Positions 9,902-54,997 are shown, counted from the first letter of the stretch. The stretch: 54,997 bases of DNA from an uncultured Chthonomonas sp. (GCA_903885605.1 CAISJD010000001.1:1-54997); one strand, 5' to 3'. A program made the numbers and translations. The notes: generated by a model not told the origin, from the letters alone.

Positions 9902-11235
9902 AGATAGCTCCTCAGGCCGGTCCATGCCTCGGCGAAGTCGGCCTGCACCCGGTGCAGGTCGTCACGGGTGTGGCCCTCAAAGCGAGCCGTGAGCATCGGC
10001 TCTGTGACCGACATGCGCACAAGGCCCCAACCGTGCTCCGCCTCGGCCCTGACCCCGTCGGCCCGCGAAACCCGGTAATCAGCGGCGAGGTGCTCCGCGA
10101 GCCTGTCCAGCACCTCCTGCGCATCGCCTGCCGAGGCGACGGGCACCCGGAGCTCAGGTCCGGTGGCGTAGGTCGGCAGGTGTGCAACCATGGCGGAGAG
10201 CGGGCCGTTGGCGGCCACAAGCCTGGCCATCCGGGCGCCGGCGAGCAATCCGTCATCGCCCTGGATCTCGCGGAAGAAGTGGTGGCCTGACAGCTCGCCG
10301 GCGTAGGGCGCCTGAAGCTTGATGAGTGCCGTCCTGATGAACGCGTATCCCGACCGCTGCGCTATCGGCTCGCCGCCGCACCGACGGATCTCATCGGGCA
10401 CGAGGCGCGAGCACTTCTGGTCGTAGACGATCAAGGCGCCGGGGTGTGCCGTCAGCGCATCCGCCGCGAGGATCGCGACGGTCTGGTCGGGCGTGAGCGG
10501 CGTTCCGCGCTCGTCCACGAAGGCGGCTCGGTCACCGTCGCCGTCGAAGGCGATGCCCAGGTCGGCGCCGTCGGTTATCACAGCCCGTGAGAGCGGCTCC
10601 AGCGCCCCTGGCATGCCGGGGTTGGGTCCGCGCCCCGGAAAGTCGGCGTCCACCTCAGGGAAGAGGGCATCGACCCGGTGGCCGATGGCCCGTAGCGCCG
10701 CGACCGCCGGTGCACCCATCACACCGTTGCCGGCGTCGACCACCACGCGGATCGGGCGGCACGGCGGCTCCATGGCAGCTCGCGCCTCGACGTACCCGGA
10801 TATGACCTCTGCAGCTGTTACGCTGCCGCCCGGCCGCGCATTGGTGGCGCCCGACTCCATGGCCTGCCGCAACAGGCCCATCCCGGCTTCCGTGAGCGGC
10901 ATTTCCCCGAGCACGACCTTGAAGCCGTTGTCGTCAGGCGGGTTGTGCGATGCCGTCACCATGACGCCGGGCATGACCCCCAGTCGGCCGCGGGCGAAAT
11001 AGAACGCCGGGGTAGGCAGCGTTCCGAGGTCCAGGACCCGGAGCCCGCCCTGAGCCATGGCGGTCATGAGGCCGGCCTGAAGCTCGGGCGTCGAACGGCG
11101 TCCATCGCCGCCCACAAGAACCGCGGAACCCTGGGGCAAGATGACGGCCAGCGCGTGCCCGAGGGCCGAGGCATGCTCGGGCATGATCTCGGTACCGAAC
11201 CTGCCTCGTATGTCGCAAGCCTTGTAGATGCTCAC
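9898..11235 (-). CDS. Phosphomannomutase/phosphoglucomutase (ManB/AlgC-like)
   Basis: A 445-residue alpha-D-phosphohexomutase. Seen: N-terminal YKACDIRGRFGTEI (the CDIRG form typical of PMM/PGM), the phosphoserine loop VTASHNPPDDNGFKVV, the metal loop AFDGDGDRAAFVD, and sugar-specificity segment GELSGHHFF where GlmM has GGEQSGH. It would interconvert mannose or glucose 6- and 1-phosphates for polysaccharide or nucleotide-sugar synthesis. The start is GTG 11235, 6 nt after the UroD-like stop; its own stop overlaps the kinase start. The linked kinase suggests a sugar-phosphate pathway, by inference. Confidence 0.9.
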   Translation of the reverse strand: MSIYKACDIRGRFGTEIMPEHASALGHALAVILPQGSAVLVGGDGRRSTPELQAGLMTAMAQGGLRVLDLGTLPTPAFYFARGRLGVMPGVMVTASHNPPDDNGFKVVLGEMPLTEAGMGLLRQAMESGATNARPGGSVTAAEVISGYVEARAAMEPPCRPIRVVVDAGNGVMGAPAVAALRAIGHRVDALFPEVDADFPGRGPNPGMPGALEPLSRAVITDGADLGIAFDGDGDRAAFVDERGTPLTPDQTVAILAADALTAHPGALIVYDQKCSRLVPDEIRRCGGEPIAQRSGYAFIRTALIKLQAPYAGELSGHHFFREIQGDDGLLAGARMARLVAANGPLSAMVAHLPTYATGPELRVPVASAGDAQEVLDRLAEHLAADYRVSRADGVRAEAEHGWGLVRMSVTEPMLTARFEGHTRDDLHRVQADFAEAWTGLRSYL

Positions 11236-12407: not shown

Positions 12408-14888
12408 TCAGGCCAGGTTCTGGGGGTCGATATCGACGATCAAGGCACGACGTAGCGACGAGGGCAGTGTGGCCAGTGCCCGGGCGACAGATGCGGCAAT
12501 GTCGTGCTCCGGCCGCGTACGAAGCAGGGCATGCCAACGGTACAGAGTATTCAGTTTTGCCAGGGGAGCAGGCGCGGGCCCAAGCACCTCGGCCTCCGGC
12601 GGAGCGGCGCCGCGGAGCGCACCTGCGACTGCCTCGGCGCCGGATCGAGCGGCGGCGTCGCCCTTGTCCTGGCACACCAGGTTGGCGAGGCGGCTGAAGG
12701 GCGGATAGAGCAGCTCACGCCGCGCCTCAATCTCGTCGGCGTAGAACGACGCGTAGTCGTGCCGTGCGGCGGCTTGAACGGCGGTGTGCTCCGGCGCGAA
12801 GGTTTGGATCAGCACCTCGCCCGAGGTCGTGCCCCTTCCCGCGCGGCCTGCCACCTGCGCAAGGAGCTGGAACGACCGCTCCGAGGCGCGGAAGTCCGGC
12901 ACATGCAACGTAGTGTCTGCGTTGATGACGCCTACGAGCGTGACGCCCGGGAAGTCGAGGCCCTTGGCGACCATCTGTGTGCCGATCAGGATGTCCGCCT
13001 CTCTCGAGCGGAACCGGCCCAGTATCTCGGCATGCGCCCCCTTCCGGCCTGTGGTGTCGCGGTCCATGCGTGCGACGGAGGCGTCTGGGAAGAGGCGCTG
13101 GATCTCCTCTTCCACGCGCTCGGTGCCGACGCCGAAGCCCTTCAGCGATGCTCCGCGGCACTCGGGGCAGAGCACGGGCAGACGCTCGCCATGGTCGCAG
13201 TGATGGCACCTGAGCCGTTGCGCGCCTGCATGGTACGTCATGGCCACGGCGCAGTTTGGGCAGCCCGGCACATGCCCGCAATCCCGGCAGAGCAGGAACG
13301 GCGAGTAGCCGCGGCGGTTCAGGAATAGGATCGTCTGCTCGCCGCGGGAGAGGCGATCTCCGATGGCATCCGAGAGGTCCGGAGAGAAGAGGCTCCGCTG
13401 GGCGCGCAGGGCCGAGCGCATATCGACCACGCGCACATTGGGCATCGGCCGATCACCGACGCGGGTGTGCATCTCGAGCAGGCATATTCGTCCGCCCTGG
13501 GCAGCATGGTAGGTCTCCACGCTAGGGGTGGCGCTGCCCAGGATCAGTTGGGCGTTCGCCTCGACGGCGCGGACCTCGGCCACGTCCCGTGCGTGGTACC
13601 GCGGCGACTTGTCCTGCTTGTAGGAGCTCTCGTGCTCCTCGTCTACGATCACCAGACCCAGGTCGCGGACCGGCGCGAAGATGGCCGACCGGGCGCCGAC
13701 GGCGATCCGCGCCTCGCCGCCCTCCAGTCGGCGCCATTCGTCATGCCACTCGCCGGGCGTCAAGGCGCTATGGAGGATGGCTACCTCATCGCCGAAGCGG
13801 GCTGTGAAGACGTGCAGCGCCTGTGCGGTCAGCGCGATCTCTGGCAGCAACACCACCGAGCCGCGGCCCCGCTCCAGGCCGCGGGCGATGGCGTCCAGGT
13901 AGACCTCGGTCTTGCCGCTCGCCGTGACGCCGTGCAGGAGGAAGCGCCCGCCGCCGTCGGAGCAGGCCAGGGCGCGACAGGCGTCTGCCTGCGACGGCGT
14001 GAGGGTGGGCGCCACATTGCGGCGCTCGGAGGCTCCACCGGGAGCGCGCCGCACGGAGACGGTGGTGCAGAGCAGGGCGCCGCGCTCAGCCAGGGCGCGG
14101 ACCACGGCGGGGGTGGATCCGGCAAGCTCCGCCAGTGATCGGGCATCGAGCCATGCGTCGCCGTCCTGGTCCGCCCGGCGTGCGGCGTCAAGCACCCGTC
14201 GCATCGCAGAGCCCAGGCGTGTGGCGCCCGGCTCCCAGTCGGCCGCGATCGCGAACCTGTCCAGCGTTTTGGCTTTGGCGGCAGGGCCGACCAGTCGGTA
14301 CTCGCGGGCCACAGCGCCCAGGTGGAGCAGCGAGGAGAGTGCAGCGTCATAGGAAGCAGCAGGGGCAGACCGCTTCAGTTCGGCATCGGTGAGGGGTCCC
14401 TTCGCCGCGTCGAGCGCATCCAGCAGGCGCTCACGGGCATCGAGGATGGAGGCATCCTGCCGCCGTGCGGCACCCAGTAGCCGCATGTCGCCGCGGTCCC
14501 AGGCCAGCCGGTAGACGCGCCGGGTGGCTCCGACGACCAGTGGCGGCGCTACGCAACGGATGGCCGAGCCGAGGTCAGTGAGCCACCTGTGCGATATCTC
14601 CCGCGCCAGCGCGATTCGATCCGCGGTCAGCGCGCAGGAGTCAGGTGACGTGGCCAGGATGCCGGAGAGACGCTCAGCCGGCGGATCCCCCGGGCCGATG
14701 CCGCGGACGCCGAGGACATACCCCACGCTCTCCCGTCGGTTGAACGGGATGTGGACGCACGCGCCCACGATGACGTCAGCCGTCAGTCCGGAGGGCACGC
14801 GGTACGTGTAGGTGGGCAACAACCCCTGGGCGTCCGTGATCACGGCGACATCTGCCACGACTACAGGTTCGGTGCTGGGTGCGGGCAA
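12408..14888 (-). CDS. priA: Primosomal protein N' (replication restart helicase PriA)
   Basis: PriA recognises stalled or repaired forks and reloads the replisome. The 826-residue frame covers the N-terminal fork-binding domain (TYRVPSGL, GACVHIPFNRRESVGYVLG), Walker A (HGVTASGKTEVYL), the DEEH box (IVDEEHESSYKQD), the zinc-binding Cys cluster (CRDCGHVPGCPNC, LRCHHCDHG, LCPEC), and helicase motifs V/VI (GTQMVAKGLDFPGVTLVG, QVAGRAGRG). The most upstream start is TTG 14888 without a clear Shine-Dalgarno; an in-frame GTG about 10 codons in is possible, so the exact start is uncertain. First gene of the minus-strand run ending at yjbQ. Confidence 0.96.
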   Translation of the reverse strand: MPAPSTEPVVVADVAVITDAQGLLPTYTYRVPSGLTADVIVGACVHIPFNRRESVGYVLGVRGIGPGDPPAERLSGILATSPDSCALTADRIALAREISHRWLTDLGSAIRCVAPPLVVGATRRVYRLAWDRGDMRLLGAARRQDASILDARERLLDALDAAKGPLTDAELKRSAPAASYDAALSSLLHLGAVAREYRLVGPAAKAKTLDRFAIAADWEPGATRLGSAMRRVLDAARRADQDGDAWLDARSLAELAGSTPAVVRALAERGALLCTTVSVRRAPGGASERRNVAPTLTPSQADACRALACSDGGGRFLLHGVTASGKTEVYLDAIARGLERGRGSVVLLPEIALTAQALHVFTARFGDEVAILHSALTPGEWHDEWRRLEGGEARIAVGARSAIFAPVRDLGLVIVDEEHESSYKQDKSPRYHARDVAEVRAVEANAQLILGSATPSVETYHAAQGGRICLLEMHTRVGDRPMPNVRVVDMRSALRAQRSLFSPDLSDAIGDRLSRGEQTILFLNRRGYSPFLLCRDCGHVPGCPNCAVAMTYHAGAQRLRCHHCDHGERLPVLCPECRGASLKGFGVGTERVEEEIQRLFPDASVARMDRDTTGRKGAHAEILGRFRSREADILIGTQMVAKGLDFPGVTLVGVINADTTLHVPDFRASERSFQLLAQVAGRAGRGTTSGEVLIQTFAPEHTAVQAAARHDYASFYADEIEARRELLYPPFSRLANLVCQDKGDAAARSGAEAVAGALRGAAPPEAEVLGPAPAPLAKLNTLYRWHALLRTRPEHDIAASVARALATLPSSLRRALIVDIDPQNLA

Positions 14889-48942: not shown

Positions 48943-48970
48943 GCGGCCTCGGCATCGGAGCCGAGGCCGC
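48943..48970 (-). terminator. Intrinsic terminator on the 3' side of the tRNA-Gly fragment
   Basis: A perfect 11-bp stem (48943-48953 with 48960-48970, 6-nt loop). On the minus strand it is followed by TTTCTGTT, a fair T-run. It lies just downstream of the tRNA-Gly 3' end, as expected for a tRNA transcription unit. Confidence 0.75.
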
Positions 48971-48975
48971 ATGAA

Positions 48976-49009
48976 TGGAGCGGGAAACGGGACTCGAACC
49001 CGCGACCCT
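48976..49009 (-). pseudogene. 3' fragment of tRNA-Gly, probable integration (att) scar
   Basis: Read on the minus strand: variable-loop GGGTC, T-arm GCGGGTTCGAGTCCCGT (49003-48987), acceptor 3' strand TTCCCGC, discriminator T, and CCA (48978-48976). By recall it matches the last 33 nt of E. coli tRNA-Gly(GCC) at all but two positions. The 5' acceptor strand GCGGGAA, D-arm and anticodon arm are absent from the 80 nt that should hold them. This is the classic leftover when an element integrates into a tRNA gene and rebuilds the intact copy at its other end, here to the right of the window. Confidence 0.75.
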
Positions 49010-49496
49010 GAGGCGCGGGCGAATGCCGCTCCGGCGACCGACCTGAAGCGTTGAGCAGAGGCTCACCAGAGAGTATATCACCATCGCCGCGCCGGTGGGG
49101 CATGGCGCGCTAGCGGCGCACGATGGATCGGAGTCGCCGGGAAGCGGCCCAGGACGCCGTCGGCGTAGCGCGCGATGAGATGGATAGGTCAGCGTCCAAG
49201 CCATCCATCAGCCCCGTGGCACGGCTGATTGCCAAAGCCGATAGTCAATGTCCAGTGGCGGCTCCCCGGGCCAGTGCAGTCGTATCCACGTATGACAGCG
49301 CCTATGGCAGCCGCTGATCTCGAACCCAGTCGGGGCGCCGGAGCGGTCCCAATGTCCACATTGGCCGAGACCGCGCATCCACGGACCTTCCCAGTAACGC
49401 CCGGTGCTACACGACCACACCTTGCGTCTTACATCCCGGGGCCGCGGCGCGGCTCACCCTCACGACCGAAAGGCGGACTGACATACTTAGGTGCAC
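49010..49496. other. Gene-poor stretch at the island's left end, about 490 bp
   Basis: No convincing coding frame on either strand, and no intact tRNA. The operon on the right ends at 49497. An AIPR or other last gene of a related system could once have been here, but I see no recognisable remnant. Confidence 0.5.
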
Positions 49497-50519
49497 TTAT
49501 CGGCGCAGGACCGACCTGAAAAGCCCGCCCTCAGCACGACACCATTCGGAACTCACAGGAGGAACGTCCGTCAGGTCTGCCATAAAGCGAACATCGGAGA
49601 CACTAGGAGGCAAGGGCCCGGGAATGCAGGGGATGTCAGTTGCGCGGTAGAAGGCTAGTGACTTCTCCGCCAGTTGTGTGTCGAACCTATCCTCGAGTCC
49701 TTGCCGCCAATCAGAGCCCAAGGTGAGGCCGATGACCCGGTCGACGTGCAGCACCATATCGGGATGCGCTGCCATCCGTGTCCGCACCAGATTGGCTAGT
49801 TCGCACACCGAGGCTCCCGTCTCAGCCCGCTCTACATACAGCGACGCCACGAGTACATCCGCGGGCTGGTTGGGGCGCAACTGCTCCAACCCAAAGTGGT
49901 GCCGTCGAGAACGGAGCGCCGTGCTCTTCACCTCAATGCGCTGATCTGCGGATCCGAAATCGAAACGCTCTTCTGGCAACAAGTGCCATGCCCCTGTGAG
50001 GCGCACAGGATCACCCGCCTTGGCGACCAGCAGCAGCTCGGCCCACAATCCCTGAACTGACTTTGCCGGGGGCTGCGTCATGGCCCGGAACAACTCTACG
50101 AGATTAGCCACGGCATCAGCAACGTCCTGTCCAGCCGGATCATCGCCAACTGCACCTAGCATGGCGCCAGCAACGCGAAGGAAGTAGCCATGCAGTACTG
50201 TATCATCTCCCAAGCACTGGATGAGCGTGAAACGGCCAGCCTCGACTAGCCCATCCGAGCGCGTGACACGGCACTCAGTACCGAAGCTAACCGTGACGTG
50301 CCGCAACATGATCATCGCGGCGGCCCTCGAGGCGCCGTTGGTTTCCGACCTCAGCAGGATTGCGGGCGCGCCACAACTATCTTGCGCTAGCCGATGGCTC
50401 GGATAGCCTGGAATCACAACTGCGCTTAGTTGGCCGCTGCAAGCCGGCGCGGCTGCCTGCGCAAGAGTTTCGGCATAAAGGGCTGCCAGATCGGGGATGC
50501 CTTGGCGTTGCGTCGACAT
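49497..50519 (-). CDS. PD-(D/E)XK motif protein, DUF4420-type nuclease
   Basis: 340 residues. The nuclease core is visible: GLWAELLLVAKAG (Glu161), then ERFDFGSADQRIEVKSTALR, giving Asp187, Glu196 and Lys198 of the PD-(D/E)XK fold. The C-terminal half includes LRPNQPADVLVASLYVERAE, typical of DUF4420. In MutL/Z1-type systems this family supplies the restriction nuclease. ATG 50519 lies 3 nt after the Z1 gene's stop, so it is the last gene of the operon. Confidence 0.83.
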   Translation of the reverse strand: MSTQRQGIPDLAALYAETLAQAAAPACSGQLSAVVIPGYPSHRLAQDSCGAPAILLRSETNGASRAAAMIMLRHVTVSFGTECRVTRSDGLVEAGRFTLIQCLGDDTVLHGYFLRVAGAMLGAVGDDPAGQDVADAVANLVELFRAMTQPPAKSVQGLWAELLLVAKAGDPVRLTGAWHLLPEERFDFGSADQRIEVKSTALRSRRHHFGLEQLRPNQPADVLVASLYVERAETGASVCELANLVRTRMAAHPDMVLHVDRVIGLTLGSDWRQGLEDRFDTQLAEKSLAFYRATDIPCIPGPLPPSVSDVRFMADLTDVPPVSSEWCRAEGGLFRSVLRR

Positions 50520-50522
50520 GGC

Positions 50523-52730
50523 CTAGCACTCAGCCACCCAGTGCCGCGCCATGCACTTGGGGACCCAGACAGCGACCGCCGGCACTCGATCCGCCACGAC
50601 CATGCCCTTGCTTCGCAGGCGCAGCCAGTGCACCTGCACCGTAAGCGTGGCCAGATCACGGACAGCGCGATCACCCGGGTAGATGGAGCCGGTGCTATCA
50701 GGATGTGGGCCCTGGAACAACTGCTGTATGCCGTCGTTACCGAGTTCGCGCTCCCGCGTCCTCCCCCGGCTCATCAGATAGACCGCACATCGAGTGTCTC
50801 CGGCACCGGGTGCGGGACTGGCATCTAGGAATGACCGCAACTGGAGTAGCAGACCCACCAGGTTCTGTGCATCCTTAGGTGCCCCGTAGCGCAGGCGCTC
50901 AAGCAGGTCTGCATGGATCGACGCCAAGGACACCGCGCGCGCAACGAGGTGGCGCTGCGCCTCAGTGCGTGCGGCATGACCAGTGTCAGGCTCAAGCGAA
51001 AGCCCACCAATGAATGCCGACACGGTTTTTTCATTGGTCGCAAGTGCATCGATTGGCAGGTGCGGCATATCGGGCGCGAACCATCGGTCAGAATAACCGC
51101 CGCGGGTATAGGTGCGCTGCACCACCTCGTCACGCGTGGGTCGAAGGTTCGGCGACAGAAAGAAGGCACGCCGCCAGTCCCGCAAGGACTCACCATCGTC
51201 GAAGTGCGCTCGCAACTCCTGCCGAACGCTCTCCTCATGCTCCACGCACTCCGAGTACGCCTGACGAGTGTCTGCGCTCAGATGCACCCTACACAAGCCA
51301 AGGTAGTCGGCCTTGTAGCCAAACCAGCGCGCCCGCTGCTGGATGGTATCGGCGTTGCCGACGCCGCGACCTCGCGGCATATACGTCACCGTCAGGCCCC
51401 GAATGGTTACGCCCCGATTGAGCACTTCGCCACCAACGGCGATGTGCGCGTAGTCGCGCTTCCAGTTCGGCTCCTCGATCTTGCCCTTGGAAGAGTTCAT
51501 CTCCGTAACGATTGTTGTGGAGATCGCATTGCCTAGCAGGGGGACCACGTCGCCAAACGGCGGAAGACTGCTTTCGGTACTGGCGAGGTCATTGTATGCC
51601 ACGGCGAACTCCGCGATGAGATCCTGGCAATCACTGTCGGTCAGCCCTTGGCCGAGCGTACGCTGCCATTCACGCTGCGTGGCGCGGACCCATCGGGCGT
51701 AGTCAGCGTGGCCCGCTATCTCCTTGGATGGATGGACCATCATGGAGCGGTTACCCTTGTCACCGCCACTAAGACCGACAGCGACGCCAATGTAAAACGC
51801 TCGCAGCGCTTCCAGTAGACTGTCAGGTGGCTCGACCACCGGTACCGAACCCGTCGGGATGTCATTCTGCGGGATTGTGCGGACAAGATCTAGGCGCTTC
51901 TCAAAGAAAACCTGGCCACCGGTGTATGCGTTGCCGGGCGTCAATAGGACGCCAAACTCCGGTGAAAGTTGGTCGATAATGCTAATCAGCAGCGGCGCCT
52001 GGGGTGTTGCAGTGTATTGCAGGAACGTGTGGTGCGGCAGTAGTGCGCGTAGTGATACCACCTTGGAGTAGGTTGGGCTCTGCCCATTGTTGTGCACCTT
52101 GCTATTCAGGCTAGCCTGATCGGCCTCATCGTCAATAACAAGAGCAGGTACATCGCGCAAGTCCATATCAGCTAGCAGTATTCTCAGGTTCTCGAGGTGC
52201 CGGCAGTTCTTCATAACCGTGATAAGCACCGTGCGCCCACACGTGCCCGGCACTGGCGGCGGCCCAAGTGCATTGTAGATGCTCTGCCTGTTCGCTGGCG
52301 TCACCCTAGGATTACTGAAGTGGCTCCACTCCCGGTCATCCCGCGTGTCAAGCCGAAGGTCCTCCTGCAGTCGGGCCTTCGATTGCTCGAACAGGTTGGT
52401 GGTAACGCCAGTCAGCACGATCACCAGGCGATAGCCGTTGTCGCGTGCCAAGGCAGCAACCGCGGTGAACGACATGGTCTTGCCGCTTTGAACATAGCCG
52501 ATCACGAGGCCGGTCCCAGTTCCAGTGACCGACCGCGGCGGCACGCATCGCTCTAGAACGGCAACCGCCTCGCGTAGGACAACTGCGCCGCCCCCACCCG
52601 CCAAGCGCCGATACTCGAGAAGCGCCAGCGTCTCTTGACCCACAACTGGAGACCAACGCGCCTCGCTACTTGCGCACCTAAGCACCTCGACGACTTCCGT
52701 TGCCGCCCGCACTTGGGTCTCATCATCCAT
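50523..52730 (-). CDS. Z1-domain protein, superfamily II helicase-like ATPase
   Basis: 735 residues. Seen: Walker A VIGYVQSGKTMSFTAVAALA (Lys84), TGVTTNLFEQ (motif Ia region), Walker B VIDDEADQASLN (Asp200-Asp204), motif III LQYTATPQAPLL, motif V GGEVLNRGVTIRGLTVTYMP and motif VI TIQQRARWFGY. The C-terminal portion (about 480-640) is the Z1 domain, with TRDEVVQRTYTRGGYSDRWF. Such proteins occur almost only in R-M and defence loci, probably as translocases for the nuclease. The ATG is 28 nt after the GHKL gene's stop. Confidence 0.88.
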   Translation of the reverse strand: MDDETQVRAATEVVEVLRCASSEARWSPVVGQETLALLEYRRLAGGGGAVVLREAVAVLERCVPPRSVTGTGTGLVIGYVQSGKTMSFTAVAALARDNGYRLVIVLTGVTTNLFEQSKARLQEDLRLDTRDDREWSHFSNPRVTPANRQSIYNALGPPPVPGTCGRTVLITVMKNCRHLENLRILLADMDLRDVPALVIDDEADQASLNSKVHNNGQSPTYSKVVSLRALLPHHTFLQYTATPQAPLLISIIDQLSPEFGVLLTPGNAYTGGQVFFEKRLDLVRTIPQNDIPTGSVPVVEPPDSLLEALRAFYIGVAVGLSGGDKGNRSMMVHPSKEIAGHADYARWVRATQREWQRTLGQGLTDSDCQDLIAEFAVAYNDLASTESSLPPFGDVVPLLGNAISTTIVTEMNSSKGKIEEPNWKRDYAHIAVGGEVLNRGVTIRGLTVTYMPRGRGVGNADTIQQRARWFGYKADYLGLCRVHLSADTRQAYSECVEHEESVRQELRAHFDDGESLRDWRRAFFLSPNLRPTRDEVVQRTYTRGGYSDRWFAPDMPHLPIDALATNEKTVSAFIGGLSLEPDTGHAARTEAQRHLVARAVSLASIHADLLERLRYGAPKDAQNLVGLLLQLRSFLDASPAPGAGDTRCAVYLMSRGRTRERELGNDGIQQLFQGPHPDSTGSIYPGDRAVRDLATLTVQVHWLRLRSKGMVVADRVPAVAVWVPKCMARHWVAEC

Positions 52731-52758
52731 CTGGGCTCACCTCCGCTGCGCTTCGCCT

Positions 52759-54312
52759 CTATGGTTTGGACAACGCATGCCTTAGCAACTCGTTCACATT
52801 GCGCCGGACGACACCGACCTTCTTAACACCTGCTTCCCGCGCGGCCGACTCAGCGAGGGCAAGGGCGCACGCGACACGCAACAGCGGCTCAATGCTGTCA
52901 GTGGTTGTGCCGCCGAATCGCTCCATGAAGGGGTGAGCTAGTCCCAGGCGGACGCCCACACGCCTCCGCGTGATGTCGAGTGGCAGAGTGTCAGTAAGCA
53001 CGTCATCTGAGATGTCAAGCCAGTCACCCACCGCGGGATCGTCGGACAATTCCAACACGATCTCCCAGTCCATGTCGGCGAAGCGTATGCTGATGTTGCG
53101 CTTCGACGCGACGTGTGCACCAGGGAACTCGCTCGGCAGGTCCTGCTCCAGGGTACTGTCGACGAGTCCCTCCAAGACAGGCGGAGCCTCACGCTCAATC
53201 GTGGCTGCGGTGTGTTTCGTAGCCGTCTCTGCGCCAGCCTGAAGGTCGCTAGGTTTGGGCCTAGAGCGGAAGCCCTCAGCTTGCGAGAGCAGTGGGAGAG
53301 CCTGATCGTCTAGCATATCTCTTAGCAGCGACAGGAACACCTCCTCATTCTCTTGCCACTTGAATCCGTCCTTAGTGTGACTTACCTCAAACCCGTCCAG
53401 ATGCAGTTCTCCGAATAACCGTTGATACGCATAACTATTTGATTTTCCAAACACGGGTTCCGGCCGATACCCTTCGTCTGCGCTGCCTTCAATGAGCCGG
53501 TTCTTCCTGAACAACGCAAATCCAGCTCCTGTAGTGCTGCCAATCCGCCGCAATGCCGCGAAGCCGTGGGCTCGAAGCCCAAGCCCGAAGTCAAACGCCA
53601 GGTCCTTCCGCCACGTGACCGCAGGTGCCGAGGGAGTCTTGTAGAACGGCGCGCAAAGCACTTCGGGCTCCGTGAAGTTCAGCGTCTCACCATCAAACCG
53701 TAGTTCAAGGCTGCCATCGCGAAGGAAAACGCGATAGATGCCGGTGAGGTGCTCCTTCACTTTGCCAATAGTCCTGCCGTACAGCCGTTGGTGAAGCCCG
53801 GTGAGCACGATCTCTGTGTAGTGGTGCCTGGGGTCAACCAGAGCGGTATGAACGTCGAGTTCTTCGATCTGGCCGTTAACAATCTTGCTAATGTCGAACG
53901 CGATCGTCCGCTCCACATCGTCGCCCAGAGCCGAGGTCCGCACCGTCCATCGCTTGGCTAACCAGCAGGCTGCGCTCTTCATGCCCATACCGAACTCGTT
54001 TAGGCCACTGGTGTCTGGAGGTACTTCAGCCGGTCGGAACGCCCTCGGGTACTCACTGGCGAATATGCCAGCCGCGTTGTCACGTATTGTCAGTCGGCCG
54101 TCATCCGATGGGTCGAGCGTGATCGACACACTGAGGCGGCTCTGCCCACATTCCGAACGCAGATCGTCTTTATGTGCCAGAAAGCTCTGCAGGGAGTTGT
54201 CAACGAACTCCGCCAGCGCGAACCACGGGCGGTAGTTCAGGTGGCGGAGTACGGCTAGGACCGTGACGCCCGGCCGAATGTTCACTCGTTCATTGGTCAC
54301 GGTGCTGATCAC
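52759..54312 (-). CDS. MutL/MORC-like GHKL ATPase
   Basis: 517 residues. The Bergerat ATP-binding fold is complete: N-box ALAEFVDNSLQSF (Glu35, Asp38, Asn39), G1 RLTIRDNAAGI (Asp78, Gly82), G2 LNEFGMGMKSAACWLAKRW (Gly108-Lys112). The MutL-like transducer domain follows (about 160-330, with TEIVLTGLHQRLYGRTIGKV and a conserved Lys in GFKWQE), then an Arg/Glu-rich linker and an unclassified C-terminal domain. In this context it is an ATP-dependent clamp linked to nuclease and methylase partners. The start is GTG 54312, 10 nt after the methyltransferase stop. Confidence 0.88.
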   Translation of the reverse strand: MISTVTNERVNIRPGVTVLAVLRHLNYRPWFALAEFVDNSLQSFLAHKDDLRSECGQSRLSVSITLDPSDDGRLTIRDNAAGIFASEYPRAFRPAEVPPDTSGLNEFGMGMKSAACWLAKRWTVRTSALGDDVERTIAFDISKIVNGQIEELDVHTALVDPRHHYTEIVLTGLHQRLYGRTIGKVKEHLTGIYRVFLRDGSLELRFDGETLNFTEPEVLCAPFYKTPSAPAVTWRKDLAFDFGLGLRAHGFAALRRIGSTTGAGFALFRKNRLIEGSADEGYRPEPVFGKSNSYAYQRLFGELHLDGFEVSHTKDGFKWQENEEVFLSLLRDMLDDQALPLLSQAEGFRSRPKPSDLQAGAETATKHTAATIEREAPPVLEGLVDSTLEQDLPSEFPGAHVASKRNISIRFADMDWEIVLELSDDPAVGDWLDISDDVLTDTLPLDITRRRVGVRLGLAHPFMERFGGTTTDSIEPLLRVACALALAESAAREAGVKKVGVVRRNVNELLRHALSKP

Positions 54313-54322
54313 TGGGACTGCC

Positions 54323-54997
54323 TCATGGTGTGACTGCTCCTAAGCTCGGCGATGCGACCAGTTCGGGTTCGCATGCACAACCGTGAGCACCCAAGGCAGT
54401 ACGGCCGGTGCCGGTGCGGTCCCGGGCAACCAGTCGCTCCGCGATCAACTTCACCAACTCCACATTCACTGCATTGCCTAGGGCGTTGAACGCTGCATTC
54501 TGTCCGGTGGGTAGGTACGGCAGTTCGCTCATGCTCTGGAGCTTGGCGCACTCCCGCGGAGTGAGGTACCTCCGCTGCCAACCGATAATGGGGACCTGCG
54601 TGGCAGTCATGGCGATGAGCGACGGCGACGTTGCCGGGCGTTTGACGCGGACGCCAGATGCTCGGAACTGGATAATGTAGCGCCAAATATCCCGCACCTC
54701 ACCTTTGCAATTCCATTCCAACTTTTGAAGACTAGCTGGAAATGCCAGCACTTTGGGGTGCCACTGGCTAATCCAGCCGATATTGGAGTGATACAGTGTC
54801 CGATTCTGCTTAATGAATTGTACTTTCCATGCAGGAAATTGAGCCTCTTTCGTTCGGGCATATGCAGGTAGGCTGGCCATTACCGCCTCGTCTGGCAGGT
54901 CTTGCAGAGGGACGCCGTGGCTGCCGTGGAACTTCCTAAGGCGAGCTACACCGATCGAGTGGGGCGTGTCATGTTCATAGGGGTAGTCTGCGCCGAA
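54323..54997 (-). CDS. DNA (cytosine-5-)-methyltransferase, C-terminal part; cut by the window end
   Basis: The frame is open to the right edge of the window, so the start, SAM-binding motif I and PC catalytic motif are outside. The 224 visible residues contain, upstream of the internal ATG at 54880, GADYPYEHDTPHSIGVARLR, a target-recognition region rich in Trp and Tyr (TLYHSNIGWISQWHPKVLAF), motif IX/X YLTPRECAKLQSM and GQNAAFNALGNAVNVELVKL. These are typical of C5-methylases. It leads the operon seen here and probably marks host DNA as self. Confidence 0.87.
   Translation of the reverse strand, partial: FGADYPYEHDTPHSIGVARLRKFHGSHGVPLQDLPDEAVMASLPAYARTKEAQFPAWKVQFIKQNRTLYHSNIGWISQWHPKVLAFPASLQKLEWNCKGEVRDIWRYIIQFRASGVRVKRPATSPSLIAMTATQVPIIGWQRRYLTPRECAKLQSMSELPYLPTGQNAAFNALGNAVNVELVKLIAERLVARDRTGTGRTALGAHGCACEPELVASPSLGAVTP

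Follow-up and report, generated by a model that had tools for sequence, protein, structure and literature searches.

In 2008, the eukaryotic MORC silencers were suggested to derive from prokaryotic restriction operons encoding ATPases of the MORC family, and Iyer, Abhiman and Aravind predicted a third type among these operons, which combines a MORC ATPase, a superfamily 2 (SF2) helicase with a Z1 motif, a linked protein of restriction-endonuclease (RE) fold and, frequently, a DNA methylase (PMC2292703). By analogy, the best biochemical precedent is CglI/NgoAVII, in which the site is shielded by a C5 methylase, and nuclease and Z1-domain ATPase assemble as an R2N2 complex whose ATP hydrolysis is confined to unmethylated target DNA and which probably translocates before it cuts; CglI cuts unmethylated sites only, and heavy ATP hydrolysis is required (PMC4267653, PMC5737866). 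Here, we analyse a four-gene operon at the right end of a contig from an uncultured Chthonomonas sp. (the window, that is, the whole stretch of 54,997 bp, corresponds to the entire contig C1 in a draft genome of 5.6 Mb). We consider it likely that this operon is a MORC-type restriction-modification (R-M) system of the third type, that it is the sole cargo of a 7.3-kb island at the 3' end of a tRNA-Gly(CCC) gene, and that it works as proposed below. Sequence or predicted structure shows the four genes to be present with intact active sites, the ATPase to be of MORC type, and the set to form a horizontally acquired island.

All four open reading frames (ORFs) lie on the minus strand. The C-terminal 224 residues (229–452) of a C5-cytosine DNA methylase occupy 54323..54997, with the ORF running open off the contig end, so that the window stops inside the gene. 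It is followed by a GHKL-S5 ATPase of 517 aa with a GTG start (52759..54312), a Z1-domain SF2 helicase/translocase of 735 aa (50523..52730) and a DUF4420 PD-(D/E)XK nuclease of 340 aa (49497..50519), the successive gaps being 10, 28 and 3 nt. Matches to Pfam models are above the gathering cut-off for all four proteins (DNA_methylase 2.6e-6, HATPase_c_3 1.7e-12, Z1 1.5e-37 and DUF4420 4e-21), and the catalytic residues of every one of them are invariant or nearly so in 44–49 homologues each. The gene layout, domain calls and complete key motifs reported in an earlier sequence-only reading of this DNA are thus all borne out.

Motifs and predicted fold both identify the GHKL protein as a member of the MORC family. 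Residues E35, N39, D78, G82, G108, G110 and K112 of the N, G1 and G2 boxes, as well as K314 of the S5 domain, are invariant among homologues, and the MORC-specific S5 motif GhXhhpXXRhl is present as GFALFRKNRLI (residues 264–274), with an exact match in 41 of 48 homologues. The predicted structure (mean pLDDT 88) finds MORC3, MORC2 and SMCHD1 as its top fold matches (Foldseek E 3e-15; Z 21–23 over ~290 residues), with MORC4 also among the top-ranked and Hsp90/TRAP1 next after the MORC group (Z ~19), while a sequence-profile search of solved structures gave only a weak HtpG match for this protein. MutL is not among the matches listed in these fold searches, and the MutL-like part of the sequence-only description appears wrong or too loose, although the two may still be kin. 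We note that the eukaryotic proteins share the GHKL-S5 ATPase fold with the bacterial one, but that no CW, chromo or hinge domain was seen in the latter, the gene for which sits in an operon with a methylase, a helicase and a nuclease.

The Z1 protein matches PADLOC Helicase_II at 3.7e-52 and conserves, among its homologues, the motifs GKT, DDE, YTATP, NRGxT and ADTIQQRARWFG, while its C-terminal motif DTIQQRARWFG fits DThhQXuRhFG except at one position, which is Q in place of a hydrophobic residue. When the Z1 profile was run on 14 control genomes, it found a match only in Corynebacterium glutamicum, the home species of CglI. The sequence-profile search of solved structures returned no match for either the Z1 or the DUF4420 protein. 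In the DUF4420 model (pLDDT 93.6), residues ~148–331 are predicted to adopt a restriction-endonuclease fold, which is in line with its E-D-ExK motif. Foldseek alone gave no significant match for this model; a second structural alignment placed NhoI best (Z 6.8 over 111 residues at 3.8 Å), with further matches to Hjc, DpnI, SwaI and EcoRV, and these scores (Z ≤6.8) are modest, with all matches belonging to one fold class. For the N-terminal 147 residues there were only weak START/lipocalin-like matches (Z <4).

The catalytic set of this nuclease, E161-D187-E196xK198, is invariant in 44 homologues, save for E196 being D in two, and at one related locus (L043) an HNH_2 nuclease gene follows Z1 in the DUF4420 position (13784-14713), as would be expected if this slot needs a nuclease. 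Both observations bear on an alternative in which foreign DNA lacking methylation would be compacted or trapped by the MORC and Z1 ATPases, much as transposons are by the MORCs of eukaryotes, and DUF4420 would be an accessory or structural part. The nearest solved folds being those of eukaryotic MORC silencers speaks for such a role, but the conserved active site and the other nuclease in the same position speak against it, and we regard silencing as unlikely.

The missing part of the methylase, which the sequence-only reading had expected beyond the window, was recovered on a second contig, C99 (L058, 11,574 bp), which terminates in an ORF bearing methylase motifs I–VIII. The last 12 bases of C99, TTCGGCGCAGAC, coincide with the 12 that open the reverse complement of the window, and the frame continues across this overlap, such that residues 1–232 are encoded on the plus strand of C99 (L058:10879-11574). 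The joined protein is complete at 452 aa, conserves the PCQ and ENV motifs found among its homologues, and scores 210 bits against TIGR00675 dcm (cut-off 100.65). Since the junction falls inside a block, W225..E228-F-G-A-x-Y233, that is conserved among 46 homologues, the join is very probably correct. Synteny points the same way: in one congener (G001), genes matching C99 run on into sequence that in another (G002) is located upstream of the same tRNA-Gly gene.

We further compared the target-recognition regions of the operon methylases by segment alignments, since those of the control methylases are shorter. Their median identity is 37% (45–55% in the catalytic part), which is above the 24% obtained for a small and mixed control set of 16 unrelated C5 methylases from the phylum and the 19% obtained for shuffles. 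This agrees with a single lineage whose members probably share their specificity. The conserved region predicts that all of these systems would have one shared recognition sequence.

The same genome encodes a second C5 methylase (G000:C138 1636-2703), beside a Vsr gene on the opposite strand (1267-1473; region 1267-2703). Methylases with a similar 444-aa frame are present in both congeners, and we take this one, for that reason, to be part of a separate, older methylation system. The Vsr on C138 is the only one in the genome, and a vsr gene, for which the sequence-only reading had advised looking, is not found within the island.

A scan of genome contigs for relatives of the GHKL protein yielded 50 loci, spanning Nitrospirae, Chloroflexi, Planctomycetes, Proteobacteria, Acidobacteria, Bacteroidetes and others; 42 of these loci keep the arrangement methylase-GHKL-Z1-DUF4420. 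Besides L043, the exceptions are three loci that are cut or fragmentary (L010, L023 and L051), one with a split GHKL ORF (L021), two in which the methylase is inverted or moved (L014 and L015) and one with no detectable DUF4420 (L057). The pairwise divergences of the four proteins are correlated (Mantel r 0.54–0.90), and the recurrence of the four genes together exceeds chance. An actinobacterial plasmid, from Rathayibacter, likewise carries all four genes, annotated with generic names, and one contig of a viral collection encodes a GHKL relative. In several relatives vsr adjoins the operon, as expected where 5-methylcytosine is made.

Measured against the third type of MORC operon, the likenesses cover every component: a GHKL-S5 ATPase with all ATP-binding motifs, the S5 domain and the MORC motif, an SF2 helicase with the Z1 motif, a linked RE-fold protein with E-D-ExK and a linked methylase, mostly a cytosine one in the original set (PMC2292703). 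There, vsr is optional, and in the sections considered here an island setting is not described; we see nothing essential in which the present operon, which lacks vsr, would differ. Taken at the level of sequence and predicted structure, the operon is a third-type MORC R-M operon. The four-gene unit is more uniform than one would expect from the account of 2008 (PMC2292703). A complete, compact set of four genes with intact active sites also makes the question of a MORC-restriction origin testable.

The sequence-only reading had offered a system like MZA, an anti-phage set, as its other option, and here the comparison is less favorable. Were the GHKL, Z1 and DUF4420 proteins to act as MzaB, MzaC and MzaD, in an abortive or otherwise non-R-M manner, the methylase would be incidental. 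The three proteins do show distant similarity to their Mza counterparts (7.8e-6, 9e-31 and 0.019, respectively), but their scores of 24.5, 106.6 and 14.2 bits amount to only 3%, 7% and 3% of the NCBIfam equivalog cut-offs of 850, 1500 and 420 bits. Furthermore, none of the four genes encodes an AIPR protein, in the place of which a methylase is found, and this methylase precedes GHKL in nearly all relatives and co-diverges with it. We reject membership in MZA on the scores, and consider an MZA-type mode of action very improbable, while the MORC-type R-M option is supported. Two other systems resemble parts of the set. VcSduA/paraMORC3 Shedu likewise couples a GHKL ATPase to a PD-(D/E)XK nuclease for phage defence, but does so in a single fused protein with a paraMORC rather than a MORC ATPase, and without a Z1 motor or methylase (PMC12137116). 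The defence island of Corynebacterium diphtheriae BH8 has a Dcm-like methylase, a Z1 helicase and DUF4420, but with an EcoRII-like nuclease and an HTH-fused methylase, and with no MORC protein mentioned (PMC5379612).

For the MORC-type R-M system, we infer the following order of steps, together with the DNA target, complex formation and the anti-phage effect that it implies. The C5 methylase would mark host DNA at a fixed target, and incoming unmarked DNA would allow the Z1 SF2 motor, acting with DUF4420 as happens in the CglI/NgoAVII homologues, to start ATP-driven translocation from unmethylated sites. The MORC ATPase may then dimerise on ATP as a DNA clamp and license the nuclease in a manner broadly comparable to that of MutL with MutH, after which DUF4420 would cut. 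In this scheme, Z1 and DUF4420 would form a motor-nuclease pair analogous to that of CglI/NgoAVII, which likewise comprise, in three linked genes, a type II-like C5 methylase, a Z1-domain SF2 ATPase and a separate nuclease; the nuclease of CglI is, however, of the PLD-B3 type rather than DUF4420, and CglI is without a MORC ATPase, which would here add an ATP-closed clamp licensing cleavage. The idea of self-marking methylation with an ATPase-gated nuclease, already put forward in the sequence-only reading, is plausible as logic.

Several points weigh against this interpretation. The literature searched yielded no experimental test of a prokaryotic MORC restriction operon, be it this one or another set of MORC, Z1 and DUF4420, and domain and fold searches identified no target-recognition domain on the restriction side, where DUF4420 is without the B3 domain used by CglI. 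Candidates for the restriction-side target reader are the methylase itself, the N-terminal part of DUF4420 and the C-terminal part of the MORC protein. In addition, the C99-C1 join is based on the 12-nt overlap together with frame, conservation and synteny.

Turning to the genomic setting, the tRNA annotation of C99 places the tRNA-Gly(CCC) gene at 10184-10258, and a 40-bp repeat spanning its 3' end plus the next six bases (C99 10225-10264) recurs, identically and in matching orientation, as the right attachment repeat (attR) on the minus strand of the window at 48970..49009. Because this repeat flanks them, the four genes constitute a genomic island; the repeat-to-repeat distance is 7,326 bp, and the content is the four genes with ~0.6 and ~0.5 kb of flank. 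The intrinsic terminator that originally belonged to tRNA-Gly (48943..48970, minus strand) now lies outside the right end of the island. In G002, which represents the empty site, tRNA-Gly is intact and has this terminator stem and the same peptidase gene immediately after it. The GC content of the island is 60–61%, vs 68–69% in its surroundings, and a search of 11 other genomes of the family did not find the GHKL gene. On these sequence comparisons, the operon was acquired horizontally as the whole content of a tRNA-integrated island.

In G001, a different island occupies the same tRNA-Gly gene (L079:1-3416, L094:4806-5598), its cargo including genes for a DUF559-like nuclease and for a helicase similar to restriction enzymes of type IV and type I (HsdR). 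The two islands share ~95 bp of the right end and ~48 bp of the left end; the shared right-end segment (49010..49105, minus strand), which blastn and alignment find in the G001 island and not in the G002 empty site, is a candidate integrase arm region. While the kind of MORC operon is known from prediction, this island setting and the swap of cargo at one tRNA gene are new, and they show how a restriction system can move bare and be exchanged for other restriction cargo.

R-M systems can act as addiction modules, and an island carrying nothing besides the four genes invites the suggestion that its loss, with the methylase diluted before the nuclease, would kill the cell, phage defence being secondary. 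Such selfishness is compatible with defence and not exclusive of it, and post-segregational killing is shown by simple type II pairs, from which an ATP-dependent multi-subunit system differs in layout; as the primary explanation we find it very improbable.

With regard to expression, a promoter-like site (TTGACA-18-CATAAT) precedes tRNA-Gly, no terminator-like site was detected ahead of the methylase gene, and the tRNA terminator lies past the far end, such that transcription of the operon by read-through from the tRNA promoter is possible. No integrase ORF is present between the 40-bp repeats, and seven tyrosine recombinases are encoded elsewhere in the genome. A more elaborate version of the preferred R-M interpretation would have the MORC clamp gate a CglI-like translocating enzyme with the same target across phyla, as the conserved target-recognition region would suggest, and would have a minimal tRNA island, itself lacking an integrase, depend on one borrowed in trans and on the promoter of the host tRNA for transcription, with the tRNA terminator capping it; we advance this combination tentatively, and consider it rather doubtful as a whole.

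In G002, tyrosine recombinase genes adjoin other tRNA-Gly genes (G002:C8:2165-3209 and G002:C139:12267-13345), and these are possible trans-acting integrases for such islands. Upstream of the same tRNA-Gly in that genome (G002 L080:1810-5682) are one helicase/restriction-like gene and one N6-methylase-like gene, which, judged from their sequences, are possible further defence genes. Among the related loci, L020 and L036 begin shortly after a tRNA, without a repeat, and L013 has a tRNA 3'-end repeat far from the operon. At L055, a 45-bp repeat comprising the 3' end of tRNA-Asp and its terminator (positions 77 and 2565) lies just upstream of the operon, hinting at a tRNA-island history there too.

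Finally, the operon has optional neighbours, namely Vsr, MTaX1 (PF20296, in Bacteroidetes) and a PD-Lambda-5_A-like gene that comes with a partner. The last of these forms a recurring pair after DUF4420, consisting of a ParB-like/PD-Lambda-5_A-like protein and a ~310-aa protein, for which no Pfam, PADLOC or NCBIfam match was obtained (L013:14871-16914, L019:11750-13805 and L020:10693-12743). The MTaX1 gene (223–737 aa) also follows DUF4420, at L021:8979-10802 and as 27 similar genes in 27 loci, mostly of Bacteroidetes, and looks like a lineage-specific fifth component.

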